A stretch of DNA of 41,032 bases. Source: Candidatus Omnitrophota bacterium. Lineage in GTDB: Bacteria; Omnitrophota; Gorgyraeia; Zapsychrales; Fredricksoniimonadaceae. A program made the translations under genes and the position numbers. The stretch spans positions 111 to 41,142 of the forward strand of contig JABDCU010000014.1 of assembly GCA_013287965.1 (NCBI GenBank). Direction: 5' to 3'. Within the stretch, counting starts at the first letter, position 1; each line of letters starts with the position of its first letter. Below the pieces are notes generated by a model that was not told the DNA's origin, searched no databases, and worked only from the letters and a program-made list of their open reading frames with translations. Positions 12,252 to 41,032 of this stretch are shown one piece after another.

Positions 12252-13028
12252 CTATGGCGTTAATGCCCTATTCGCCAATAAAAACTCTTCTGCTAACTCT
12301 TTGTACTTTAAAGAACCTGCCGAAGCGGCGTCATAAAAATTGATCGGTTTGCCAAAACTTGGCGCTTCGCTTAGACGTATGTTCCTGGGAATAATTGACT
12401 TGTACACTTTTTCCTTAAAATAATTCTTGATCTCATTGATTACTTCATTGGTCAAATTAGTCCTGAAATCTGCCATGGTCATTAAAACACCTTCAACGTG
12501 CAGATCAGTATTAAGCCCTTCTTTGACCAGGGCTATGGTATTTAATAGCTGGGACACGCCTTCCAAGGCATAGAATTCACATTGAATCGGGATCAAAATG
12601 GAATCTGCGGCGACCAAAGCATTGAGCGTTAAAAGACCTAAAGATGGCGGGGAATCTATAAATATGAACTCGTATCTGTCTTTGATAGAGTCCAGGGCTT
12701 TTTTAAGCCTGGTTTCTCTAGAGAGAACTCCGACGAGCTCTATTTCTGCTCCGGTCAAATTGATATTGCAGGGAATGATATCTAAATTATTAACACCTGT
12801 TTTGACCAGGCCTTGGGTAACTGCGATACGGTGAATGAGCACATCATATAAAGACTCTTTAATCTCGTTCTTATTGACCCCTACCCCGCTGCTTGCATTG
12901 CCTTGGGGATCCATGTCTACAATAAGGATTTTCTTGCCTAAAACAGCCAGGGCTGATGCCAGGTTGATGGTTGTAGTGGTTTTGCCTGTCCCGCCTTTTT
13001 GATTGCAAACAGCGATAGTTTTAGCCAT
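12252..13028 (-). CDS. parA: Chromosome-partitioning ATPase ParA/Soj
   Basis: MAKTIAVCNQKGGTGKTTTTINLASALA. The tracked GTG start lies inside parS, so the ATG at 13028 is preferred. Confidence 0.96.
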   Translation of the reverse strand: MAKTIAVCNQKGGTGKTTTTINLASALAVLGKKILIVDMDPQGNASSGVGVNKNEIKESLYDVLIHRIAVTQGLVKTGVNNLDIIPCNINLTGAEIELVGVLSRETRLKKALDSIKDRYEFIFIDSPPSLGLLTLNALVAADSILIPIQCEFYALEGVSQLLNTIALVKEGLNTDLHVEGVLMTMADFRTNLTNEVINEIKNYFKEKVYKSIIPRNIRLSEAPSFGKPINFYDAASAGSLKYKELAEEFLLANRALTP

Positions 13029-26892: not shown

Positions 26893-27726
26893 ATGCCAGT
26901 TGAAAATAAAAAACAAGTTGTGATCATCCTCTTTGCCGCGGTCATTGGGATCGTAGCGGTGATCTTGATGAGCAATTATGTCAAAAGCAGCATTGAAGGC
27001 CAGACCTCGGCCTTGGCAGAACAGTATAATGCCAAGCAAAAAGAGATCGTTTCCCAGATCCAGCAGCGCAGTGACCAGCAAATGGCAGCCTTGGCCCAGG
27101 AATTAGAACGCGTCAAGAGCGAACAAGCAACAGCCATGCAAAAGCAAATGGAAGCCTTGCAAGCAGCCCAAAAAGCCCAGGCGCAGCAAACAGTCCAGGT
27201 TAAAAAAGTCCGCAAGCCGTCATTAGCCCTAAAGACACCGGTGGGCAAACGCGCGGTGACGGTGATGATCGATTCATTGGCAGCCGTCGGCGGATTGCTT
27301 AACGCGGGGGACTTTGTGGATGTGATAGCTCAACTTAATGTCCCTTCCCAGGATCCGGACAAGAAAACAGTGACAGCCATGATCTTTCAGGGTCTGCAGG
27401 TCTTGGCCATCAATACCAATGAAGATGACCCGGGCGCTTATGACGACCAGCAGGCATCCGCCAGTTTAAAGATCACCGTTGCGGTTGACCCGCAAGAAGC
27501 AGGGCTTTTGGCTTTTGCCAATAAAAACGGAAGCTTGGAATTAGCGTTGCGTTCCCCTGATGACAGTGACCACCAAATGGTCAAGGCAGACACATGGAAG
27601 ACCCTGGCAGACTATGTTTTGAAAAATCAGGGGCTTGATATCCAGAACCCTGACGGGGAAAGTGCTGGCAAGCCAATGGAGAATAAACCAAGCATCCAGA
27701 TTTTCAGAGGCGGCAAGGAGTTATAA
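26893..27726 (+). CDS. cpaB: CpaB/RcpC-like Flp pilus assembly protein with coiled coil
   Basis: N-terminal TM, Q-rich coiled coil, RAVTVMIDSLAAVGGLLNAGDFVDVIAQL, TMIFQGLQVLAI, ITVAVDPQEAGLLAFANKNGSLELALRSP. Confidence 0.8.
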   Translation: MPVENKKQVVIILFAAVIGIVAVILMSNYVKSSIEGQTSALAEQYNAKQKEIVSQIQQRSDQQMAALAQELERVKSEQATAMQKQMEALQAAQKAQAQQTVQVKKVRKPSLALKTPVGKRAVTVMIDSLAAVGGLLNAGDFVDVIAQLNVPSQDPDKKTVTAMIFQGLQVLAINTNEDDPGAYDDQQASASLKITVAVDPQEAGLLAFANKNGSLELALRSPDDSDHQMVKADTWKTLADYVLKNQGLDIQNPDGESAGKPMENKPSIQIFRGGKEL

Positions 27727-27729
27727 ATA

Positions 27730-29496
27730 ATGGGACGCACCTTTTTAAAGAAATTTCTTATTATCGCGCTGGGCCTTGTTTTAGCGGTTGTTTACATGCC
27801 GCGACTATCCGCCAATGAAAACATATCGGCGACAAGTGACATCATTGACATGGTTGCAGGGGATATTGAAACGGTTCCGGCCAGCAATTTGGTCCGTGTT
27901 TCGGTGACCAATCCTGAGGTGGCGGACATTTCAGATGCCCAAGGCGATAAAGTTTCCATCTTGGCCAAGAAAGCCGGAGAAACTGTTTTGTTTTTATGGG
28001 ACACCGGCGGCAAGCACAGCGTTAAGGTGCGCGTGGTCAACGAAGACTTAAGCGTTGTTAAGGCCCGTGTGCAAAAACTTTTGGATGAAGCGAACATTAC
28101 CGGTGTTTCTTTGGAAGCAAACCTGGATGAAGGCAAGGTAGTGGCCTCAGGGTCTTTGTCCAAAGAAGACAAAAACCGGATGGACAATATCATGCAGCCG
28201 TATAGTGATAATTTGTTGAGTTTGGTCAAAGAAGAGAAAAGCGAAGATTTGATCCAGGTGGACATGCAGATCGTGGAGATCAGCACATCCATGGAAAAAG
28301 ACCTGGGGATATTGTGGGGGAACTCAACGGCTAACTCCGGCGGCAGTTCAAGCAACACTACCCCCGGACTGACCGTTGAAACTGAAAAGCTCCCTAAAAC
28401 CAACGGTAACGGCGAGATCGGCGACTTTTTTAAGGTAGGAAGCTTTGGCAGGACGGCATTACAGGCCACGGTCAATGCCTTTATTCAGGAAGGCAAGGCC
28501 CGCCTTATTTCCAAGCCCCGCTTAGTGGTCCTCAGCGGCAAGCAAGCTTCTTTCCTGGTGGGCGGGGAAATACCCACGTTAACCACGACCACCAATACTA
28601 CCGGAAGCACCTTGACCCAAAATACGAGCTATACGCAATATGGCGTTAATGTGACAGTGACGCCCACTATTCGCGAAGGGAAGATCGATGTATTGCTCAA
28701 TGTGGATATCAGGGACATTGATAATGCGAATGCGTCAAACGGGAACACTGCTTTTATTACACGTTCAGCTTCGACAAATTTGTTTATGGAGAATAGACAG
28801 ACCATTGCCTTGGCAGGGCTGATCAAATATTCGGAAAGCGAGAATTTGACTTCAGTCCCGTTTTTATCAAAGATACCTATTGTAGGGGCATTGTTCAGGA
28901 ACCGCCAAACACCTTCACCGGACACCAATACAGAAATGGTGATCATTTTGACGCCGACGGTGCTGGCGGACAAGAAATTTGCGGACAGCCAATTGGTGAT
29001 GCCGACACCTTCGGAGCGTGATTCGTATAAAGAGATCGACTCACGGTATGAACATGAGCCCTTGACGCCGTCGGTTGTAAAGGTGACGCAGTGGGCGGCT
29101 CCCAAGGACCCGGTCACGGCCCCCAATCCAGTCTGGTCGGTGCCGGCAGCAAATTCTTCAGCGATAATGACAGCCTACGCGCGCATGGTGCAAGAGAAAA
29201 TTTCTAAAGCCATCTTCTATCCTCAGGCAGTCATGGGCACGGCGCTGGCAGGCACGGTTAAATTGAAATTACGCATACTCAAAGACGGGTCATTGGATTC
29301 AGCAGAAGTGATGGAATCTTCAGGGAATGATATTTTAGACAAAGATGCCATCCAAGCCGCTAAAACAGCCGCTCCTTTTGAGGCTTTTACGACGGGAATG
29401 GACCAGCAAGACCTGGCCTTCACGATCCCCATCGTTTACAATAAGCTTATTTCAGGGACCCAGGTCCCTGCGGAGAAAGCCATTGCTTCGTATTAA
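27730..29496 (+). CDS. cpaC: CpaC/RcpA-like pilus secretin with C-terminal TonB-type domain
   Basis: N-terminal pilus/BON-like region; secretin core KARLISKPRLVVLSGKQASFLVGGEIPTL...VPFLSKIPIVGALFRNRQ...TEMVIILTPTVL; C-terminal AYARMVQEKISKAIFYPQAVMGTALAGTVKLKLRILKDGSLDSAEVMESSGNDILDKDAIQAAKTAAPFEAF. Confidence 0.88.
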   Translation: MGRTFLKKFLIIALGLVLAVVYMPRLSANENISATSDIIDMVAGDIETVPASNLVRVSVTNPEVADISDAQGDKVSILAKKAGETVLFLWDTGGKHSVKVRVVNEDLSVVKARVQKLLDEANITGVSLEANLDEGKVVASGSLSKEDKNRMDNIMQPYSDNLLSLVKEEKSEDLIQVDMQIVEISTSMEKDLGILWGNSTANSGGSSSNTTPGLTVETEKLPKTNGNGEIGDFFKVGSFGRTALQATVNAFIQEGKARLISKPRLVVLSGKQASFLVGGEIPTLTTTTNTTGSTLTQNTSYTQYGVNVTVTPTIREGKIDVLLNVDIRDIDNANASNGNTAFITRSASTNLFMENRQTIALAGLIKYSESENLTSVPFLSKIPIVGALFRNRQTPSPDTNTEMVIILTPTVLADKKFADSQLVMPTPSERDSYKEIDSRYEHEPLTPSVVKVTQWAAPKDPVTAPNPVWSVPAANSSAIMTAYARMVQEKISKAIFYPQAVMGTALAGTVKLKLRILKDGSLDSAEVMESSGNDILDKDAIQAAKTAAPFEAFTTGMDQQDLAFTIPIVYNKLISGTQVPAEKAIASY

Positions 29497-30579: not shown

Positions 30580-32751
30580 ATGTTTTCTAAAGTTATCACA
30601 GTATTCAGCAATAAGGGTGGCGTTGGCAAGACCTTTATCGGGGTCAACATTGCCTGCGCGCTGGCTTTAAGGGGCAAGAGGGTGCTGATCGTGGACTTGA
30701 ATTTGCAGGCGAGCCAGGACATGGCGCGCATGCTTAACCTGCCTCCCACCCATTGCCTGGTTGATATCCTGGCGGACATGGAAAGCTCCACTGACGTGAT
30801 CAAGAACAATATCGTCACGCACAGCAGCGGCCTGCATTTTTTACCGGGCATTAAATCCCCCAAGCAGATCGGGCACATCACCTCGGACAACCTGCGTTTA
30901 TTTTTTAAAAAAGCATCCAACCAGTATGAATACATCATTGTCGACGGAGGCAGTACCTTCAGCGAGATCTTTATCAGCATCCTGGACTGCTCCAACCTGA
31001 TCCTTTTGGTGAGCACCCCGGACATCCTGGCCGTGTACCAGGTAAAAACCAGCCTGGAGATCCTCCAGAGCTTGCATTTTCCCTTAAAGATGGTGCTTTT
31101 GATCTTAAACCGGGCGGAGTCGCGCGGCGGCGTCGCCTGGCAGGAAGTCAAAAGTGCTTTGGCCTGCGAAGTTTTTGCGTTGATACCTTCGGATGGCAAG
31201 ACAGTGGGGGTCGCGCTAAACCGCGGCGTGCCCTGTGTCATTGACAGCCCTAAGACAAAGGTATCGGAAAGTTTTTTTGCGATCGCCGACAGCTTGAATG
31301 ACGAGAGCATTTATGTGCAAGCCAGTGATGTCATCAAGGTGCGCGCCAGCGAGCACACTTCTAAAAAAACCGATGCCTTCTGGGAAAAATTCGGCATCAC
31401 GCCCAACGTGGCCGAAGCGGCGATGGATTTTAAAAAAGAAGAAGATGAGGTCATTAAAGTAAAACGGGCCGTGCACCACTTGCTGGTTGAGCGTATGAAT
31501 TTACAAAAGATGTCGCAGGAAGTCCTGAATGATCCTTCTCAAGCGGCCAATCTGCGCAAGGCCGCCCAAAAGGTGGTCACGGAACTTTTGGCGGAAACTT
31601 CGGGCACATTCCTTTCCAGCCATGAAGAGCGCGCCCGCTTAGTCAGGGAGATCGTCAACGAGGCCCTGGGGCTCGGGCCCCTGGAAGATTTTCTGGCCGA
31701 CGATACGATCACCGACATCATGGTCAACAATAAGGATGAGATTTTCGTGGAAAAAAACGGGAAGATCCTTTTGACCAACAAGAGGTTTATTTCCAATGAC
31801 CAGGTCCGTGCCACGATCGACCGGATCATTGCCCCTTTAGGCCGCCGCGTGGATGAATCAACCCCCATGGTGGACGCGCGCCTTCCCGACGGGTCTCGTA
31901 TCAACGCGATCATACCGCCCTTGTCCCTTAAAGGCCCCATGATCACGGTGCGCAAATTTTCCCAGGACCGCTATACCATTGAAGACCTGCTCACCCGTTT
32001 TAAAAGCATCTCACAGCCGATGGCGGATTTCTTAAATGCCTGCGTCATCGGCCGCAAGAACATGATCGTCTCCGGCGGTACAGGGGCAGGTAAAACCACC
32101 CTGCTTAATATTATTTCACAATTCATTCCGGATAATGAGCGCATCATTACTATTGAAGACGCGGCGGAGTTGCGGCTGGTCAAGACACATTGGGCCCGCC
32201 TGGAAAGCCGCCCCGCCAATATTGAAGGCCGCGGCAAGATAACGATCAGGGACCTTTTTGTCAATACCCTGCGCATGCGTCCGGACAGGATCATCATCGG
32301 CGAGTGCCGGGGCCCTGAAGTTTTGGACATGTTGCAGGCGATGAATACCGGCCATGACGGCTCTTTGACCACCTTGCACGCGAATACGACACGGGACACC
32401 CTTTCGCGCATGTCATCCATGGTCCTGCTTTCGGGGATTGAACTGCCATTACGAGCCATTTATGAAATGGCTGCTTCAGCGATCAATATCATTGTGCAGA
32501 TCAACCGTTTTTCCGACGGGTCGCGCAAGATCACCGCGATCTCCGAGCTTACCGGAAAAATGGTAGATAATCTGCCGGAGATCATCGACGTGTTTACGTT
32601 TGTCCATAAGGGGGTCAATGCCGAAGGCCAGATCATGGGAGAATACGCAGCCACCGGATACATCCCCAAGTGTTTTGAAGACTTGAGCACCCGGGGCATA
32701 CCGCTTAGTAAAACCGTTTTTGAAAATCATGATCGCAAATCTCACCCGTAA
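30580..32751 (+). CDS. CpaE (MinD/ParA-like) - CpaF (type II/IV secretion ATPase) fusion protein
   Basis: VITVFSNKGGVGKTFIGVNIACALALRGKRVLIVDLN N-terminal; IVSGGTGAGKTTLLNIISQFIPDNERIITIEDAAELRL...RMRPDRIIIGECRGPEVLDMLQAMNTGHDGSLTTLHAN C-terminal; 723 aa without a stop. Confidence 0.93.
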   Translation: MFSKVITVFSNKGGVGKTFIGVNIACALALRGKRVLIVDLNLQASQDMARMLNLPPTHCLVDILADMESSTDVIKNNIVTHSSGLHFLPGIKSPKQIGHITSDNLRLFFKKASNQYEYIIVDGGSTFSEIFISILDCSNLILLVSTPDILAVYQVKTSLEILQSLHFPLKMVLLILNRAESRGGVAWQEVKSALACEVFALIPSDGKTVGVALNRGVPCVIDSPKTKVSESFFAIADSLNDESIYVQASDVIKVRASEHTSKKTDAFWEKFGITPNVAEAAMDFKKEEDEVIKVKRAVHHLLVERMNLQKMSQEVLNDPSQAANLRKAAQKVVTELLAETSGTFLSSHEERARLVREIVNEALGLGPLEDFLADDTITDIMVNNKDEIFVEKNGKILLTNKRFISNDQVRATIDRIIAPLGRRVDESTPMVDARLPDGSRINAIIPPLSLKGPMITVRKFSQDRYTIEDLLTRFKSISQPMADFLNACVIGRKNMIVSGGTGAGKTTLLNIISQFIPDNERIITIEDAAELRLVKTHWARLESRPANIEGRGKITIRDLFVNTLRMRPDRIIIGECRGPEVLDMLQAMNTGHDGSLTTLHANTTRDTLSRMSSMVLLSGIELPLRAIYEMAASAINIIVQINRFSDGSRKITAISELTGKMVDNLPEIIDVFTFVHKGVNAEGQIMGEYAATGYIPKCFEDLSTRGIPLSKTVFENHDRKSHP

Positions 32752-33091
32752 TCTTGTTATCGCTTCCCGTATTGAAATTGCCCAAAACCCTTGGGCACGG
32801 ATGAAAGGCCTGCTTGGGAGAAGTGATCATCCCCAAGGGAACGCCTTGATCATAACGGGCTGTCAATCCATCCACATGTTTTTTATGAAATTCCCCATTG
32901 ACGTTATTTTTTGTGACCGTCAGAATAAGGTGGTCGGCCTTTGCCAAAACATTAAGCCTTTTTCTTTGTCCCCGGTATTTTTTAAGGCTTCCTATGCTAT
33001 TGAATTGCCTTCAGGCAGTATTGCCGCATCAAAAACACAAATAGGCGACCAAATAGAACTACCGTTGACGCCCCACAACACAGTGTTATAA
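32729..33091 (+). CDS. DUF192 family protein
   Basis: ASRIEIAQNPWARMKGLLGRSDHPQGNALIITGCQSIHMFFMKFPIDVIFCDRQNKVV. Confidence 0.85.
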   Translation: MIANLTRNLVIASRIEIAQNPWARMKGLLGRSDHPQGNALIITGCQSIHMFFMKFPIDVIFCDRQNKVVGLCQNIKPFSLSPVFFKASYAIELPSGSIAASKTQIGDQIELPLTPHNTVL

Positions 33092-33116: not shown

Positions 33117-34133
33117 ATGGGCGTTACCTATAAACTCAAGGACGAGGTTGTTCATTTTATTATCAGCCAAAGACAAGACAACCCTCTTGCCTCTTGTCGC
33201 CAATTGGCTGAATCCGCATCTCAAAAATTCGGGCTGCATCTTTCTAAATCATCGGTCCATGATGTCCTTAAAGAATCAGGCATTGTAACGCCGCGGGGCC
33301 GTAAGCCCAATGGCAAGTTCGAGATCCCCCAGGAAAAAAAGAAGCAAATCCAAGACAGCTTCTCCCAAGTCAAGTTATTGCCAGACCCAGTTGTTTTGCC
33401 CGTCATCCTGAGCGAAGCGAAGGATCTTAATGTGTCTAAAGATTCTTCGGCTACGCCTCAGAATGACATGGAGACTTCTCCCGAATACGACGGCGCGGGA
33501 AAGATTTTTCTTAAGGCAGCGCTTTGGGACCTGGGCATTTTTTCCGAGGAGGACATCAAAAAAACGGATTGGGATTATTATTTGACCTATAGCAAGGGTA
33601 TTAAGGTGGTTTTAGAAAGTAACAAAAGTTTTTTCATTGATCTGCCGCTGCCCCTTGAACGTTGCATCAGGGAAGTGGCAGATGGATTAATTAATAATGT
33701 AAAGCCGCTGATTGTCCATAAAGTTTCAGATGAAGGGCTTTTTAAAGTATGCATGGATGCTCAGACGGGATTTAAAATCAACAAAATATCAATAGTGGAG
33801 CAATATGACCACATTATACTAGAATTTGTCGATATAATGGAGTTTAAAAGGAATTATTTTATGAGAAATAGAATGTTTGTGGATAGCAATGATGTAAATG
33901 CCTTGGCAAGATCAATGGCACTATTTTTTCCACAAGCAATTGATAATAATAATGTTATAGAAGAAATATTGAATTTCAAAGGATTTAACACCACAAGCAA
34001 AGAAGAAAATGTTGTAACGCTATTATTTGATGATAGTTATAAAAATAAAGCTCTGCTCAAAGAAGCGGTGGAGAGGTTAAATGGGATGTATTTGCGCGAT
34101 GAACAAGATAGGCTGGTGAAGGTTAAAATTTGA
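33117..34133 (+). CDS. Uncharacterised protein with N-terminal helix-turn-helix
   Basis: KDEVVHFIISQRQDNPLASCRQLAESASQKFGLHLSKSSVHDVLKESGIVTPRGRKP HTH; remainder no recognised family; REP-like insertion at 33402-33467. Confidence 0.6.
   Translation: MGVTYKLKDEVVHFIISQRQDNPLASCRQLAESASQKFGLHLSKSSVHDVLKESGIVTPRGRKPNGKFEIPQEKKKQIQDSFSQVKLLPDPVVLPVILSEAKDLNVSKDSSATPQNDMETSPEYDGAGKIFLKAALWDLGIFSEEDIKKTDWDYYLTYSKGIKVVLESNKSFFIDLPLPLERCIREVADGLINNVKPLIVHKVSDEGLFKVCMDAQTGFKINKISIVEQYDHIILEFVDIMEFKRNYFMRNRMFVDSNDVNALARSMALFFPQAIDNNNVIEEILNFKGFNTTSKEENVVTLLFDDSYKNKALLKEAVERLNGMYLRDEQDRLVKVKI
33402..33467. repeat. REP-like imperfect palindrome inside CDS
   Basis: GTCATCCTGAGCGAAGCGAAGGATCTT ... AAGATTCTTCGGCTACGCCTCAGAATGAC; translated as VILSEAKDLNVSKDSSATPQND. 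Confidence 0.85.
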
Positions 34134-34323: not shown

Positions 34324-34479
34324 ATGATCCAAAAATTAAGAAACAGGAACGCGCAAAATCTCATTGAATACGCGATCGTCGTTGCCTTGATCTCAGCAGC
34401 TGTGGCTGCTTTGAGCACCTACGTGTTTCGTTCCGTTCAATCACAGCAGAAGATGATCACTGAAGATTCTCTAAATTAA
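34324..34479 (+). CDS. Flp-like small pilin P0 (missing from ORF track)
   Basis: MIQKLRNRNA/QNLIEYAIVVALISAAVAALSTYVFRSVQSQQKMITEDSLN, 51 aa, class III prepilin signal. Confidence 0.85.
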   Translation: MIQKLRNRNAQNLIEYAIVVALISAAVAALSTYVFRSVQSQQKMITEDSLN

Positions 34480-34491
34480 AATGGAGGCATT

Positions 34492-34764
34492 ATGAACCAT
34501 ATAAAAAATAAAAGAGGTCAGAGCACGGTGGAGTATGTCTTGCTTGTGACCGCGGTAGTGGCGGTCATCATCGCCTTTGTAACCGGCAATAAGGGGAGTT
34601 TTCAATCGCAGATGAATACGACCCTGAACACGGCAACTGCAGATATTGGGGTTGTCGGGGAACAATTACAAACATCGCATGTAGCGCAGGGCAAGGTAGG
34701 TAATGGTACGCCCGCGTACACGGTCCCTGTTTGTGGCGGAGCTGGTCAGCCGGCTTGTAAATAA
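34492..34764 (+). CDS. Flp-like pilin, family A copy 1
   Basis: NKRG/QSTVEYVLLVTAVVAVIIAF. Confidence 0.88.
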   Translation: MNHIKNKRGQSTVEYVLLVTAVVAVIIAFVTGNKGSFQSQMNTTLNTATADIGVVGEQLQTSHVAQGKVGNGTPAYTVPVCGGAGQPACK

Positions 34765-34819
34765 TTTTATAAATCCATATAGTCCCCGCAGGATGCGTGG
34801 GACACACAAGGAGAGTAAA

Positions 34820-35182
34820 ATGTTAAGAAACTTCCTTAAAAATAGAAAAGCTCAAAATACCGCGGAATACGCGCTTTTGATCGCCTTGGTGGTTGCCGGG
34901 GTCATCGGCATGCAGACCTACGCCCAACGCGCCATGCAGGCCCGTATCCATGATGCGGCACAGTATATGGCTTCTGGCGGCGGGGCAGCCTTGCCTGCCG
35001 GGTTAGGCACTAATACGCAGTATGAACCGTATTATACGCAGAGCAATTATGACGTGAACAGCAATAGCGTTGATAATAAGCGCTTGGGGCAGAATTTGAT
35101 AGGGGCTGATTCCCAGAGTAATCGCACAAGGACCGGTTCCCAGAATTCTACCTATAACGCTGAAGACATGAATAATAAATGA
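34820..35182 (+). CDS. Flp-like pilin, family B copy 1
   Basis: MLRNFLKNRKA/QNTAEYALLIALVVAGVIGMQTYAQRAMQARIHDAAQYM...QYEPYYTQ; start reset from the tracked 34703. Confidence 0.88.
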   Translation: MLRNFLKNRKAQNTAEYALLIALVVAGVIGMQTYAQRAMQARIHDAAQYMASGGGAALPAGLGTNTQYEPYYTQSNYDVNSNSVDNKRLGQNLIGADSQSNRTRTGSQNSTYNAEDMNNK

Positions 35183-35212
35183 TCTTAACAAAATATCTTA
35201 AGGAGGAATCCT

Positions 35213-35539
35213 ATGTTGCAATATTTTAATCAAAAACGAGGTCAAAGCACCCTGGAATACGCAGTGCTGATAGTTGTCATTATCGGCGCCTTGCTGACCA
35301 TCCAGGTTTATATCCATCGCGGGGTGCAGGGACGCCTGAAAAGCGCCGCGGATGATATCGGCGACCAGTATTCCGACGGCAATACGAATTCAGTCAAGAC
35401 AACCATCAGGAATAGTTCCACGGAGGAGACGTTTAACGCGGGGAATTCCACATCCAGTCTGCTGAAGCCGGAATTGACCAACACCACGGAGAATTCCGTT
35501 ATTGTCAATGCTCAGCAGGAGTTCTGGGGGATCAAGTAA
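35213..35539 (+). CDS. Flp-like pilin, family C copy 1
   Basis: QKRG/QSTLEYAVLIVVIIGALLTIQVYIHRGVQGRLKSAADDIGDQY; AGGAGG RBS. Confidence 0.88.
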   Translation: MLQYFNQKRGQSTLEYAVLIVVIIGALLTIQVYIHRGVQGRLKSAADDIGDQYSDGNTNSVKTTIRNSSTEETFNAGNSTSSLLKPELTNTTENSVIVNAQQEFWGIK

Positions 35540-35553
35540 AAAAGGACAAACGC

Positions 35554-35760
35554 ATGCGCGCACATAAAGGTCAAAGCACGGTGGAGTATATCTTACTCGT
35601 CACGGCGGTCGTCGCGGTGATCATCTTGTTTACGACCACCAAGGACAGTACGTTTCAAAACCGCCTGACCAGCGTGTTTAATAATGCGACCCAGGACATG
35701 CTCAATGTGGCCTCCCGCTTGCAGGACAATGCGGCGAGTTCAAGCACGCCGGCGAATTAA
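35554..35760 (+). CDS. Flp-like pilin, family A copy 2
   Basis: RAHKG/QSTVEYILLVTAVVAVIILF. Confidence 0.87.
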   Translation: MRAHKGQSTVEYILLVTAVVAVIILFTTTKDSTFQNRLTSVFNNATQDMLNVASRLQDNAASSSTPAN

Positions 35761-35775
35761 GAAACGAGGCGAGCC

Positions 35776-36234
35776 ATGGACAATAAGGGGCAGGCAATCC
35801 TGTCAGAGTACGTGATGATCTTTTTCGTCGTGGTCGCGGCCGCGGTGGCCGTGACCACGTTCGTACAGCGCGGCTTTGAGGCGCGTGTCCATGACGCGCG
35901 CAACTTTATGGTCGATTCTGTCAATAGCGCGTGTGATGCCAATTGCCATGCCGCCGCCGGCGTAGTTGCCGGCGGCAATATTCCGCATGAGTACGAGCCG
36001 TATTATTCGCAAATGCTTTCAGATGTCCAGCAGAATGAACAAGACAATCTCGGAGCAGCTCGGGGCAAGGCGCAGGTCCTGGGGGCCGTGTACTACAAGT
36101 CGATCAATGAAGCGACTAAAACCATTTCGACCAGTGATCAACTGCCTCCATGTGCCAGCGCCAACCCTGTGCCGGACTGGTGTAATAAGATGCCATTGCA
36201 CGACCCGGTCATAATTGATAGGGGGGCAAGGTGA
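35776..36234 (+). CDS. Flp-like pilin, family B copy 2
   Basis: MDNKG/QAILSEYVMIFFVVVAAAVAVTTFVQRGFEARVHDARNFM...EYEPYYSQ. Confidence 0.85.
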   Translation: MDNKGQAILSEYVMIFFVVVAAAVAVTTFVQRGFEARVHDARNFMVDSVNSACDANCHAAAGVVAGGNIPHEYEPYYSQMLSDVQQNEQDNLGAARGKAQVLGAVYYKSINEATKTISTSDQLPPCASANPVPDWCNKMPLHDPVIIDRGAR

Positions 36235-36590
36235 TGCCCGCGCGTTATGGCCAGACCATAGTTGAATACACCATTATCGTCGGTATTGTTACCGTGGTTC
36301 TTTTCTATATGGGGACAGGCGTCAAGCGCGGGGTGCAAAGTCTGGTGAAGGTCACGGCAGACCAGGTGGGCAGTCAGCAGAACGCGGACCAGGATTTCAA
36401 TGACACCCGGCAAGGGTATATGGTCAATTCCACCACCGAAACACAGGAAGCCAAGAATAGGCAGGTCACGGAAACAGGGTATATACCGGTATCGGGTAAC
36501 GCGATTTATGTGAGTAATACTTCCGTTAACGAAAGCACTGACACGCAGACAAACACCTACACCAACGGAGGGTTCACGCAGACGAATTAG
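36231..36590 (+). CDS. Flp-like pilin, family C copy 2 (divergent)
   Basis: PARYG/QTIVEYTIIVGIVTVVLFYMGTGVKRGVQSLVKVTADQVGSQ. Confidence 0.83.
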   Translation: MMPARYGQTIVEYTIIVGIVTVVLFYMGTGVKRGVQSLVKVTADQVGSQQNADQDFNDTRQGYMVNSTTETQEAKNRQVTETGYIPVSGNAIYVSNTSVNESTDTQTNTYTNGGFTQTN

Positions 36591-36596
36591 ATATGG

Positions 36597-36646
36597 ATTC
36601 CCGCGAGCAACTGCGAGTGTCGGTCAATACGACCTTTCGCGGGAAT
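36597..36646. repeat. REP-like palindrome between pilin genes
   Basis: ATTCCCGCGA (36597-36606) and TCGCGGGAAT (36637-36646) exact inverted arms, with inner GGTC-AATAC-GACC. Confidence 0.75.
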
Positions 36647-36671
36647 GACATTGAGTAAAGGGATAAAGCTT

Positions 36672-37001
36672 ATGTTAAACCGCAAAGGACAAACGCTCAT
36701 AGAATACACGGTGATCGTGATCATTATCATAGGCGTCATGATCGCCATGCGGGATTATATCAAGCGGGGTGTCCAGGGCCGCTGGAAATCAGCGACGGAT
36801 GATTTTGGCGAACAATATGACCCGCAAGCCGTTAATTCCAACATCATGTATGCCACACAGGCCAATTCGGCATCTACTGTCACGGTGGAACCTGGAAATG
36901 ACAGCAGCAACGGCTCGACACAGCTGGGCCAATGGACAAAACGAGTGGACATATCTAATTCTGCGGAAACAAAGACAGGCTCTACGCAGATAGGGAACTA
37001 A
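36672..37001 (+). CDS. Flp-like pilin, family C copy 3
   Basis: MLNRKG/QTLIEYTVIVIIIIGVMIAMRDYIKRGVQGRWKSATDDFGEQY; start reset from the tracked 36645. Confidence 0.87.
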   Translation: MLNRKGQTLIEYTVIVIIIIGVMIAMRDYIKRGVQGRWKSATDDFGEQYDPQAVNSNIMYATQANSASTVTVEPGNDSSNGSTQLGQWTKRVDISNSAETKTGSTQIGN

Positions 37002-37002
37002 C

Positions 37003-38586
37003 ATGGACCCATTTAAAAAAGGGCAAGCGGCTGTTGAGCTTGCCGTGTTCGGAGCTATCCTGGTCTTTATTTTAGGGACAATTGTGCGCTCCGCCGTGGG
37101 CAACAGTTATACGCAAGAGCACAATTTCAAAGCCATGCGCATGGCCATGCTGGAATCCTGGCAAGGCTCCGATGCCGCGAAAGGCTTGGCGGGTGTCCCC
37201 CAAATATCACACAATAGCGCCTCGGTCCTTTTTATCGAAGACCGCCTTTCCCCTGACATTAATAAGTACGGAAGCCTGGAACGCAATCCTTTTATTGCCA
37301 ATGGAGCAGGAACATTTTCCTATGAGTTGAACTATCCTTTGGATAAAGGTGAAGTGTCTTTAAATTTGCCGGTCATGGATGTTTATATTAACGGACAGCA
37401 TTTTCCTTTTACCACCGCGTCCTATGTTGCGAACAGACCGATCACGCGGCCCGCTTCGTGCAATTATCCGGCCGGAAGCTGTTCACAGAACCAATGCCTT
37501 CGCAATCAAAGGGAATGGGTGACGGACCCGTCGGACAGCACTAAAAAATACAAATTGTTTTATACAATGATACCCAGCAACGGAGATTCCCGGTTTAGTG
37601 TGATCCCCCCGGTTTGTGCTGATCCGAACAATGTTAAGTGTAAGGACAAGGCATTATCTTTGAGCCTACCCTTGCCGGACGGGAGTGGGGCTTTCAATAA
37701 CGGAGAGATGCAGTATGACCTTTTGCGCAACGGGAATTATGCTGCAGTGGACAGCCAATTCCCGGCGGCCCCCCCAGCACTGATGCGTAAAAATATTTCC
37801 TGGCAATGGGCAGCTACCTTGGGCACCGTTCAAGGAGACACTACTGACGGGGCTGACCCTATGATCGGATTGGACCCTGATAATAACCAATTTCCCAGCT
37901 ATGATATAGACGGCAGGTTAAAGGAAGTGACCATTTATGGGATCAGCCAGAATTCGGATGGGTCGCCAACGGTGACCTATGAAGATAATCAGGGCGGGGA
38001 CATTGATTCAAGCTGGGACACCAATTCCTGCGGCCCTAAGCCCGGGCTGCAGAGCGACTCACACATATTGACTTTCACCAGCATATGCCCTTCAGATGGT
38101 TCTTCGTGCCCGGCTTTCGGCAGATGCGCGGATGGAAGCGCTTGTCAGCCCACGTATTTACAAGTCAAGGAAGGGAAGATGTACAATCCTGAAACCGGCC
38201 AGGAGGTGCGTAGTGTCAGCCGGCGTAGCAACGTAGATTTAATAGAACGCAGGATCCAATTAAGTAATAATACCGGACGGTTTTGTAATGGCGCTATGCC
38301 CCAGCCGTGCGTTGCGAATTGCACGACCCCGTCGAATTGTAGCTGCCCTGCTCTCGCTGACCCCAGCTTTGTCCCAAATCCGGTGGAAGTTTGCGTTGAT
38401 GGCAATACCTGCAATTGTTTTATGGGCAGTACGGCGAATGGCCCGACCAACCCCGCGTGCGGGAACACTATCGCAGAGACATGTTTTGATGCCAGCAATA
38501 ATCTCATTTATGTCCGCAGCCGTCTTCAGGACCGCCGCGGCAATGCCTGGATGACCAATGCATCAGGGCAACTGAAGGTGCAATAA
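37003..38586 (+). CDS. Large cysteine-rich pseudopilin-like protein
   Basis: MDPFKKG/QAAVELAVFGAILVFILGTIVRSAVGNSYTQE class III signal; about 20 Cys in the 527-aa protein. Confidence 0.7.
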   Translation: MDPFKKGQAAVELAVFGAILVFILGTIVRSAVGNSYTQEHNFKAMRMAMLESWQGSDAAKGLAGVPQISHNSASVLFIEDRLSPDINKYGSLERNPFIANGAGTFSYELNYPLDKGEVSLNLPVMDVYINGQHFPFTTASYVANRPITRPASCNYPAGSCSQNQCLRNQREWVTDPSDSTKKYKLFYTMIPSNGDSRFSVIPPVCADPNNVKCKDKALSLSLPLPDGSGAFNNGEMQYDLLRNGNYAAVDSQFPAAPPALMRKNISWQWAATLGTVQGDTTDGADPMIGLDPDNNQFPSYDIDGRLKEVTIYGISQNSDGSPTVTYEDNQGGDIDSSWDTNSCGPKPGLQSDSHILTFTSICPSDGSSCPAFGRCADGSACQPTYLQVKEGKMYNPETGQEVRSVSRRSNVDLIERRIQLSNNTGRFCNGAMPQPCVANCTTPSNCSCPALADPSFVPNPVEVCVDGNTCNCFMGSTANGPTNPACGNTIAETCFDASNNLIYVRSRLQDRRGNAWMTNASGQLKVQ

Positions 38587-38876
38587 TGATCTTACATGAA
38601 AACACAAAAGCGCAATCAACCCTGGAATTCACCTTTGCGATGATCGTCATTATGTTTTTGATCTATGGCATGGTGCAGGTCTTTCGCTGGGCGGGCATGG
38701 ATTTGGCCCAGCGGCGTTTCGCGCAGGACAGTGCAATAACAGCGCCTATAGCGGTAACTGCGGGTAATCCCGGCGGGGACCCGGCGGGGCAATTGTATAA
38801 TGAGAATGCCGACCGCTTCCTGCCGATGGCCGCAGTGTATAACGGAAGTGTTGCTAATGGGAATACAAGTCAATGA
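38586..38876 (+). CDS. TadE-like minor pseudopilin
   Basis: ENTKA/QSTLEFTFAMIVIMFLIYGMVQVFRWAGMDLAQRRF. Confidence 0.75.
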   Translation: MILHENTKAQSTLEFTFAMIVIMFLIYGMVQVFRWAGMDLAQRRFAQDSAITAPIAVTAGNPGGDPAGQLYNENADRFLPMAAVYNGSVANGNTSQ

Positions 38877-41032
38877 ATAAAGAGATAAACAAGAGATTGC
38901 TTCGCTTCGCTCGCAATGACACGTCGGGGCAGACGGCTTTGATCCTGATCTTATTGTCAGCGGCAGCGCTGATCTTTCTTGCCATCACGTTAAATTGGGG
39001 GCGGATCTCCCAGACAAAATCCATGTTGACCATAGCGGCTGACCAATCCGCTTCGGTACTGGCTTCCGACGCGGCCAGTTATGGGGAAGAGATGAAGCAG
39101 GCGAATTTAGGGGACCAAAATTCATACGGGGACTGGGGAGGGTCTATTTTAGCTTTTTTTGCTCTTATATTGGCGATAGCTGCCTGTGTCATTCCCGGAC
39201 CGTGGCAGGCGATAGGCCCATTTTTGCTACATTTGGCGATCGCTTTAGCAGCAGCCACCTTTGCCCTTAATTTAGTGGTGCTCCAGCCGATGATATCAAA
39301 TCAGTGGAATAAAATGCAAAGGAACCAACCGATAGAACAGCAGTTTGTTGAACAGGGCATCAGCTCGGCCCTTCAAGGCACGACCACTGATCAAGTCAAT
39401 ATCACGGATTATTATGATTGGAATTCCAACGGCAAATTGGGAAGTACCAGCGGGGACACCTTCAGCCGTTTCGCGCTTTTTTACGGCGACCGTATAAAAA
39501 TGCTCAATCAGCCGGACATTCCCCAAGTGGTGTTTTTTTATAATCGATTGGGGACATTATTAAGCGGGGGGGAAACCTGCGCCCAAAATGCGTTTGATAA
39601 CAAAGTTGACCCGACGGACATTCCGCTCGACCCGACTTGTCCCAATGATTGTCTTGCCGTTCCTTTAACAGATCCAGCTTGTCAAAATCCAATAACGAAT
39701 AGTTTTCAATTAAATGATGCGTGTAACGCTACAGATAATCCTTATTGCGACCTATGCTGTCAGACGAAGGACGTGCCGGACCCGCTCTATTGTGATCCCG
39801 CCAGACAATGCACGGCCACTGTCACAACTAATTGTTGTAAGCCTAATCCGTTACATCCTAACCCGACTAAATCTGTGCGGCCTTCTAATTGTCCGGCAGA
39901 CGTTACTGCGCGGTGCCTGACCAATAATCCATACATAGGACTACCGAGTCCTCCTACGCTTATTTATGACCCAACGTATCAGAACTACGCGGCCAAGAAA
40001 TCATTTTTAGCCCAGTTCGGCCGTGACCAGCAAGCCCCTTTGCCGGGACCGCCGCCGGAGCCGCCATTTACCCCCCTGACGCTACAGGGAGATTTTCCCA
40101 ACGGAATATATCCGTTTTTTTGGCTGATGAAAGATTATAGCCCGCAGGTGAATGCCATTGATCCAACAACCACGGCCTATAGCGTAAATTCACCTGAACT
40201 TCACTGGTGTTCCCCCGCGACGGCTGCTGCCAATGGGGTGAAGGCGGATATTCCAGTTCTTACGCCTCCGGCCGGCTTTCTTACGCTGGCCCAGTTAAGC
40301 CTGACGGCACCTGGCTATATCTGTCAGGGGAAAGATTGCTGTGTTGATTATTTAGGCGGCAGCTTCAACACTGTTCCCAGCGCTACTCTTAACAGCAACG
40401 GCAGCCCTATCAGTTATCTCTCAGGCGGTCCTACTAATGTTCCATCTCCACTCACCCTCAATAATAACGTCATCGATATAGTGGGCTCGCCCAGCCCAAA
40501 TCCAAATCCTGTGTTTGATCCAAAATTTGGAGAAGGCGGCTCAGGGGCATGGCTGGAAGGGGACAACCAGTTTTGTTCAACCACCTGGCCGTATAATGGA
40601 GCTGCTCCGGGCGTTCCGGACGGCACCTGCGAGTGGAATAATAGTACGACACCTCCCAATAATATGCCTCCTCCTGATATAAATATCAGCACTGTGGATG
40701 GCTTGGATGACGCCATGCACACCTTATCGGATTTCGTTAATTTTTCCAGCCTTATTCTTAATGCCAATGTGGACAAATTAAGCGGGACTTTTAAAACATG
40801 GTACCCTCAGGCCGCCACGTGGATAGCGCCCAAGAGCGGCATACCGGCTTGTGATATAGATCTTACGACCTGCGGCAGCCGTAATATGGGTTGTATTGCG
40901 GAAGCTGAAGCAGAGCAACGAGCGAATTGCGCGGCTTTGGCAGCTAGCTTTGGCATGGACGGCCGCTTGCTAAGTATTTACAATCCAACCACTGGTTTGG
41001 ACAGGCTTAATGATTGGAACACGGTGATCACA
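38873..41032 (+). CDS. TadG-like (Tad_N-type) protein, 3' end beyond window; missing from ORF track
   Basis: ATGA overlap with the previous stop; MNKEINKRLLRFARNDTSGQTALILILLSAAALIFLAITLNWGRISQTKSMLTIAADQSASVLASDAASYG...; 720 codons open to the window end. Confidence 0.8.
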   Translation, partial: MNKEINKRLLRFARNDTSGQTALILILLSAAALIFLAITLNWGRISQTKSMLTIAADQSASVLASDAASYGEEMKQANLGDQNSYGDWGGSILAFFALILAIAACVIPGPWQAIGPFLLHLAIALAAATFALNLVVLQPMISNQWNKMQRNQPIEQQFVEQGISSALQGTTTDQVNITDYYDWNSNGKLGSTSGDTFSRFALFYGDRIKMLNQPDIPQVVFFYNRLGTLLSGGETCAQNAFDNKVDPTDIPLDPTCPNDCLAVPLTDPACQNPITNSFQLNDACNATDNPYCDLCCQTKDVPDPLYCDPARQCTATVTTNCCKPNPLHPNPTKSVRPSNCPADVTARCLTNNPYIGLPSPPTLIYDPTYQNYAAKKSFLAQFGRDQQAPLPGPPPEPPFTPLTLQGDFPNGIYPFFWLMKDYSPQVNAIDPTTTAYSVNSPELHWCSPATAAANGVKADIPVLTPPAGFLTLAQLSLTAPGYICQGKDCCVDYLGGSFNTVPSATLNSNGSPISYLSGGPTNVPSPLTLNNNVIDIVGSPSPNPNPVFDPKFGEGGSGAWLEGDNQFCSTTWPYNGAAPGVPDGTCEWNNSTTPPNNMPPPDINISTVDGLDDAMHTLSDFVNFSSLILNANVDKLSGTFKTWYPQAATWIAPKSGIPACDIDLTTCGSRNMGCIAEAEAEQRANCAALAASFGMDGRLLSIYNPTTGLDRLNDWNTVIT
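38893..38920. repeat. REP-like sequence translated near the TadG-like N-terminus
   Basis: GAGATTGCTTCGCTTCGCTCGCAATGAC, arms ATTGC/GCAAT; encodes RLLRFARND. Confidence 0.7.

Follow-up and report, generated by a model that had tools for sequence, protein, structure and literature searches.

Organization of the pilin array

The stretch of DNA analysed here (41,032 nucleotides, hereafter the window; positions 111 to 41,142 of the forward strand of contig JABDCU010000014.1, GenBank assembly GCA_013287965.1) belongs to a Candidatus Omnitrophota bacterium and carries a Tad pilus locus with an unusually long array of pilin genes, the subject of this study. A first-pass annotation had placed eight consecutive small open reading frames (ORFs) at 34324 to 37001, all of which are present, each with a ribosome-binding site; after a singleton P0 it had assigned them to three families in the order A1-B1-C1-A2-B2-C2-C3, explained by duplication of a three-gene module and an extra C copy. 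Profiles and trees indicate, however, that the eight genes fall into seven pilin families of ancient origin, each conserved in its own right (P0, A, B, C, X, D, and E), and are not a recently copied set. The pilin-like genes of the window are as follows (lengths in amino acids, aa; strength of the ribosome-binding site, where given, as the anti-Shine-Dalgarno duplex energy of the leader in kcal/mol):

34324..34479, forward strand: P0 pilin, 51 aa; weak ribosome-binding site (-4.8)
34492..34764, forward strand: A1 pilin, 90 aa, with C-terminal extension; strong ribosome-binding site (-9.3)
34820..35182, forward strand: B1 pilin, 120 aa, with QYEPYY motif; strong ribosome-binding site (-8.9)
35213..35539, forward strand: C1 pilin, 108 aa; strong ribosome-binding site (-12.1)
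35554..35760, forward strand: A2 pilin, 68 aa, a lineage-limited extra A copy; weak ribosome-binding site (-5.3)
35776..36234, forward strand: X pilin (formerly "B2"), 152 aa, with Glu at +6 and four Cys
36231..36590, forward strand: D pilin (formerly "C2"); the GTG start at 36231 overlaps the X stop, or ATG at 36234
36672..37001, forward strand: E pilin (formerly "C3"), 109 aa, a deep paralogue of C
37003..38586, forward strand: large pilin, 527 aa, GQAAVEL signal, putative tip subunit; long N-terminal helix followed by a beta-rich region with 20 Cys
38586..38876, forward strand: TadE-like pilin, 96 aa, AQSTLEF signal; TadE match (E=0.0068) below the curated cut-off
38873..41032, forward strand: TadG-like protein of at least 720 aa, running off the contig; Tad/TadE-G-like match (E=0.013) below the cut-off

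Concerning the prepilin peptidase signal, (G/A)↓Q-x-x-x-E-Y followed by a hydrophobic helix had been ascribed to all eight small pilins. This holds for seven of them, whereas X has the sequence G↓QAILSEY, in which Glu occupies +6 and not +5; this spacing is common to its orthologues in the window family and in family f5 but not to those in f3, f7, and one of two f6 genomes. In two X orthologues (L126, L129) the signal Glu is replaced by Asp or Asn. A His follows the Glu or its substitute in the X pilins of most members of the window genus, and a Cys pair occurs in X pilins of this genus and of two neighbouring genera. A2 barely attains the class III signal cut-off (23.8 vs. 23.7).

The curated cut-off of Flp_Fap (PF04964, 32.2 bits) is not reached by any window pilin, the best being P0 with 20.0 bits, and the pilins are therefore named Tad pilins by locus and signal and not as members of that family. 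NCBIfam yielded nothing of weight, and a PDB sequence search with the B, A, and P0 profiles gave marginal matches only, P0 and A matching weakly to Geopilin domain 1. The array is not confined to eight pilins, since the products of 37003, 38586, and 38873 are pilin-like too and relatives add a further pilin (F) before tadB-tadC. For the large pilin, a structural model predicts a helix (H3-57) followed by a beta-rich part (pTM 0.60).

Pilin families and conserved gene order

tadA homologues were located in related genomes, 29 stretches around them were examined, and profiles built from clear members sorted the pilins into P0, A, B, C, X, D, E, F, and TadE. Twenty-one loci are complete, having all seven of P0, A, B, C, X, D, and E; they represent six families of the order, and the arrangement P0-A-B-C-(extras)-X-D-E is kept in 20 of them; the exception (L134) has extra B copies ahead of A. 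Conservation of such a seven-family array is far beyond chance. The same layout, in looser form, is found in five named Omnitrophota loci from more distant families. A B-type pilin was also noticed on a separate contig (C68) of genome G016.

The assignment was repeated with profiles leaving out the window genus or the whole window family, and each window pilin still fell to its own family by wide margins. With the genus left out, B1 scored 147 bits for B vs. 84 for X, 35776 scored 108 for X vs. 55 for B, C1 scored 156 for C vs. 88 for E, 36231 scored 115 for D vs. 37 for E, and 36672 scored 127 for E vs. 86 for C. The earlier family A (34492 and 35554) is correct, its members sharing 47% amino acid identity over 64 residues and 74% DNA identity over 91 nt, whereas 34820 and 35776 do not form one family B, the latter being an X, and 35213, 36231, and 36672 do not form one family C, the second being a D and the third an E. 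B and X are each other's second-best profile match, as are C and E, and the two pairs are deep paralogues; the B-X and C-E likeness noted earlier is accordingly real but old. Mean column identity amounts to 49% in C vs. 36% in A.

History of the copies

Approximately unbiased (AU) tests on constrained trees were carried out with a short alignment (110 pilins, 65 columns) and with full-length sequences. In the short tree, six of the seven families each fall on one side of a branch, and B requires one extra change; the tests are weak here, such that B1+B2 (p=0.60) and C1+C3 (p=0.31) were not rejected as sisters, whereas C1+C2+C3 was (p=0.002). The full-length tree splits B from X with a support of 99 and unites C (99) and D (100) in one group each; it rejects sisterhood of B1+B2 (AU p=0.0004), of C1+C3 (p=2e-5), and of C1+C2+C3 (p about 1e-115). 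A tree without these sister pairs had been named beforehand as the outcome speaking against the triplet scheme, and this is the outcome that the full-length trees give. A1 and A2 are paralogues, but their sisterhood was neither demonstrated nor rejected (p=0.097).

Gene order speaks likewise: relatives without A2 still have X, D, and E in the same order, which does not agree with an origin of that arrangement by triplet duplication and is the second outcome named beforehand as speaking against the scheme. X, D, and E are older than the taxonomic order itself. Synteny, left-out profiles, and full-length trees together rule out a recent A-B-C triplet duplication with an extra C in the window. 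Judging from the full-length trees, the supposed second set (A2-B2-C2-C3) consists of one lineage-limited A copy and three old genes. An ancient, undated doubling of the B-C pair is plausible, since B/X and C/E are mutual next of kin.

A1 carries a C-terminal extension (e.g., GNGTPAYTVPVCGG) in the window and in L113, L114, L115, and L116, all of which have both A1 and A2, whereas A2 in these loci keeps the short form seen in single-A genomes. A2 appears to have been added later, as a second A gene, in part of the window family. Among the 21 complete loci, A is multiple in nine, B in four, and C in five, whereas P0, X, D, and E are multiple in none. Genuine A-B-C tandem repeats exist in L122 and L131; the A-B-C repeat of L112 may be an assembly error, since one copy contains a stretch of N and P0 is degraded in this locus. 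In the class, A-B-C forms a genuine unit.

Ribosome-binding sites

The mean duplex energies are -10.1 kcal/mol for A, -10.8 for B, and -10.2 for C, as compared to -6.3 for P0, -5.6 for X, -5.5 for D, -6.4 for E, -4.9 for TadE, and -4.1 for F. Pooled, A/B/C reach -10.3 vs. -5.9 in X/D/E, and their sites are the stronger ones in 19 of 19 genomes. The split persists whether the start is taken as the best among all candidates or as the ATG closest to the signal. Of 18 other window genes, 17 lie above -8.5, and rplT reaches -9.7.

The same pattern is found in five named genomes outside the order. As a held-out check, 40 further loci, drawn from other orders or families within the class after the pattern had been seen, were analysed; 32 contain consecutive A-B-C genes, with a mean of -12.1 for the triplet vs. 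-6.7 for the other pilins. The triplet is the stronger group in 31 of these 32 loci, and the three strongest sites are exactly those of A-B-C in 24. Extra B-C pairs retain strong sites (L165, L171, L173, L177, L182, and L037). Median gaps between the genes are 22 nt for X-D, 8.5 nt for D-E, 34-45 nt for P0-A, A-B, and B-C, and 69 nt for C-X.

Repeats and regulatory signals within the array

No repeat pair able to invert or recombine pilin sets was found in the array: the sets are not flanked by invertible repeats, and there is no recombinase gene between them. The one strong direct repeat corresponds to the coding similarity of A1 and A2. The suggested switching between pilin sets is thus left without support. 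Promoter searches inside the array gave weak consensus matches only, and terminator-like sites are no commoner there than in shuffled sequences.

A dispersed repeat with the core GAGCGAAGCGAAG has 11 exact copies in the genome (reversed control: none) and lies in frame within the helix-turn-helix (HTH) gene described below (33402-33422) and within the TadG-like N-terminus (38900-38920). Short in-frame insertions just before the prepilin cleavage site (GQTPRLRSGQ, GQALRHCSGQ, and GQTLRCHSGQ) occur in the B and large-pilin genes of L115 and in A1 of L116, as if a repeat element had hit the G↓Q site and rebuilt it. The spacer between D and E (36591-36671) contains a GC-rich imperfect palindrome (ATTCCCGCGAG...CTTTCGCGGGAAT), whereas D and E nearly overlap elsewhere.

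Locus setting and machinery

The Tad locus of the window sits downstream of dnaA, dnaN, gyrB, and gyrA. Genes of the locus ahead of the pilin array include:

26893..27726, forward strand: rcpC/cpaB-like gene (Pfam RcpC 84.1 bits, cut-off 28.8)
27730..29496, forward strand: RcpA-like secretin with C-terminal TonB_C domain (Secretin 126.9 bits, TonB_C 54.2 bits)
30580..32751, forward strand: TadZ-TadA fusion, 723 aa (AAA_31 62.9 bits, residues 3-164; T2SSE 201.4 bits)
32720..33091, forward strand: DUF192 protein, a conserved neighbour (70.2 bits)
33117..34133, forward strand: HTH protein, candidate regulator (weak HTH_Tnp_Tc3_2/HTH_32 matches)

The components of a Tad (type IVc) system found here are a TadA-type ATPase, a TadZ-like ATPase, an RcpA secretin with RcpC, and the small pilins with class III signal and hydrophobic helix. 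A TonB_C domain at the C-terminus is unusual for RcpA. The TadZ-TadA fusion has homologues of equal length throughout the order, and the homologue in genome G108 comprises 740 aa. The DUF192 gene follows tadA in the relatives inspected as well, and an HTH homologue stands between DUF192 and the pilins in every relative inspected (L112-L136, L034, L037, and L188) and in G108. In relatives, the HTH homologues measure about 330-645 aa and begin with MGVxYKLKxEVV; the protein is a candidate regulator or a domesticated transposase HTH. In L115, tadB and tadC come after the array (T2SSF 63.7 and 63.4 bits). The core order of the class reads rcpC-rcpA-tadZ-tadA fusion-DUF192-HTH-P0-A-B-C-X-D-E-large pilin-tadE-like-tadG-like-F-tadB-tadC. 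Elsewhere in the window genome, on G000:C36 and G000:C11, there are another TadA-like ATPase, not fused in this case (43% identity), and a Flp_Fap-like match.

Distribution

Of 235 Omnitrophota genomes searched with the B profile, 104 gave matches, commonly 5-11 each; almost all of these genomes belong to the window's class. Among 45 Tad-bearing genomes from outside the Omnitrophota the profile gave isolated weak matches confined to the signal/helix region, and the Tad loci scanned in other phyla have far fewer small pilins, with at most five pilin-like ORFs.

In G108, rcpC starts at base 12382, the coordinate at which the Tad locus begins in the published description of Candidatus Velamenicoccus archaeovorus LiM, the best-characterised member of the class; to judge from these coordinates, G108 is probably LiM. 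Its A-B-C sites have energies of -12, -13, and -13. The Tad system of LiM is reported to be expressed in co-cultivation with Methanosaeta, and most of the class Velamenicoccia has been proposed to consist of possible epibiontic predators (PMC10066038). The window probably belongs to the same class, since it shares the class of G108 and an origin-proximal Tad locus. PMC12583861 and PMC13153191 say nothing of pili or Tad in their main texts.

Proposed working and alternative explanations

The content of the operon, the identity, order, and copy history of its pilin families, and the patterns of translation signals and copy number agree best with the following reading, to which we give a probability of roughly 0.55: the window encodes a single Tad (type IVc) pilus operon with a rich, anciently diversified pilin set, in which A, B, and C would build the shaft and the other pilins would be minor or tip subunits. 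The TadZA ATPase, together with TadB and TadC, would polymerise the pilins, once processed, through the secretin RcpA. A, B, and C would be made in large and similar amounts and form a joint shaft heteropolymer; where both A copies exist, A1 has the C-terminal tail, and A2 keeps the short form and a weak ribosome-binding site. P0, X, D, E, F, the large Cys-rich pilin, TadE, and TadG, made in small amounts, would prime, cap, or adapt the tip, which would meet another cell. As to function, the first-pass annotation had offered heteromeric pili or switching; the former is the better half of this guess and is retained as a proposal. Subunit abundance, filament composition, the role at the tip, and the function in cell contact are all conditional in this scheme. 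A stricter version, namely that the shaft is an obligate three-component heteropolymer of A, B, and C in about equal amounts, class-wide and specialised for an epibiotic predatory life, whose tip is a fixed set of P0/X/D/E, the large pilin, TadE, and TadG, is put forward tentatively at best and is rather to be doubted.

Several points weigh against A, B, and C as shaft subunits of a complete Tad operon. The argument for their joint major role consists of translation signals and copy number. D of the window has a strong site as well (-11.0), and the downstream pilin genes may rely on translational coupling, given the median D-E gap. Because the genomes compared are related, so that the counts are not independent trials, and because the strength of a ribosome-binding site is only a proxy for subunit abundance, the signal pattern supports A/B/C as abundant subunits short of proof. 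The AlphaFold model of C shows a helix and four low-confidence strands, with low confidence past the helix and no PDB match, and the model of the large pilin matched no PDB-like fold. The contig stops at 41142, inside tadG and ahead of any tadB/tadC. A prepilin peptidase was not found in the 70%-complete genome of the window, whereas one is present in 30 of the 33 genomes covered by the search of relatives. In G016 and G030, tadA (the tadZA homologue) lacks an adjoining pilin array, such that this placement is not universal.

The best surviving alternative, although unlikely, takes A, the most Flp-like family, as the sole major shaft pilin, with B, C, X, D, E, and P0 being minor or tip subunits. 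It accords with known Tad pili, which have one small major Flp pilin, and with Kil of Myxococcus, which has one major pilin (KilP) and 14 minor ones (PMC12075869); moreover, A2 does just attain the signal cut-off and A is the family most often duplicated. The sites of B and C are, however, as strong as that of A, duplicated B-C pairs keep theirs in all six loci named above, and C is more conserved than A. It is improbable that the extra pilins are loosely constrained paralogues and that the strong A/B/C sites reflect gene spacing, uncoupled genes needing sites of their own: the X-D and D-E gaps are indeed shorter than those of P0-A, A-B, and B-C, but X sites are weak despite a C-X gap just as wide, P0 heads the array and is weak nonetheless, and conservation of the pilin families spans six families of the order. 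Finally, a recent A-B-C duplication yielding two alternative pilin sets, switched or differently expressed, has hardly any standing: it can call on A1/A2 as paralogues, on B/X and C/E as deep paralogues in matching relative order, and on the real duplications in L122 and L131, but X, D, and E predate the order, the full-length trees reject sister pairing, invertible repeat pairs around the sets and recombinase genes were not found, and the second set opens with A2 and X, both of which have weak ribosome-binding sites.

Comparison with known systems

The usual description of a Tad pilus is that of a filament built from one tiny Flp pilin. In the present case, an entire class of ultra-small and putatively predatory or parasitic bacteria, most of them uncultured, keeps at least seven pilin families in fixed order, and translation signals single out A, B, and C together among the class's pilins. 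The case also corrects a tempting misreading, as similar adjacent pilins in this array are old paralogues and not the result of fresh duplication.

The organization of the window is close to that of the LiM Tad locus (CP019384, 12382-29832), which has the same order of machinery genes, the TadZ-TadA fusion, and the DUF192 and HTH neighbours. Equally to the window, it contains further pilins, then A-B-C with strong sites, a large pilin, TadE, TadG, tadB, and tadC, whereas the window family differs in its extra A2 and in a clearer X-D-E set. The pilin families of LiM are not described in the literature consulted on this organism. A three-subunit shaft would be checkable in the existing proteomes of V. 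archaeovorus LiM and, if true, would give a concrete starting point for understanding the attack of Omnitrophota on other cells.

Kil of Myxococcus xanthus, a predator's pilus, is likewise Tad-like with a large pilin repertoire, and its disulfide-rich large pilins are proposed to lie at the tip (PMC12075869). It provides the best working model for a tip composed of many minor pilins. There are, however, differences: Kil combines its one major pilin with four interchangeable KilLMN tip sets at several loci (PMC12075869), whereas a single operon here encodes seven to nine small pilin families, without repetition of a tip set, and the window contains one large pilin/TadE/TadG set only. Several non-interchangeable Flp pilins are also described for the Tad/flp loci of Bdellovibrio and like organisms, predators as well; these have four to six flp genes per genome, some of them outside the Tad locus, but no array of the A-B-C type (PMC5430801).

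Two major subunits encoded by side-by-side genes and sharing one filament are known from PilE1/PilE2 of Streptococcus sanguinis (PMC10628169) and from ArlB1/ArlB2 of Methanocaldococcus villosus (PMC8821640), neither of which is a Tad system. The window and its class differ from both in possessing a Tad system, for which three major subunits are proposed. If A, B, and C do share the shaft, this would constitute a three-subunit type IV filament and go beyond the two-subunit cases found.

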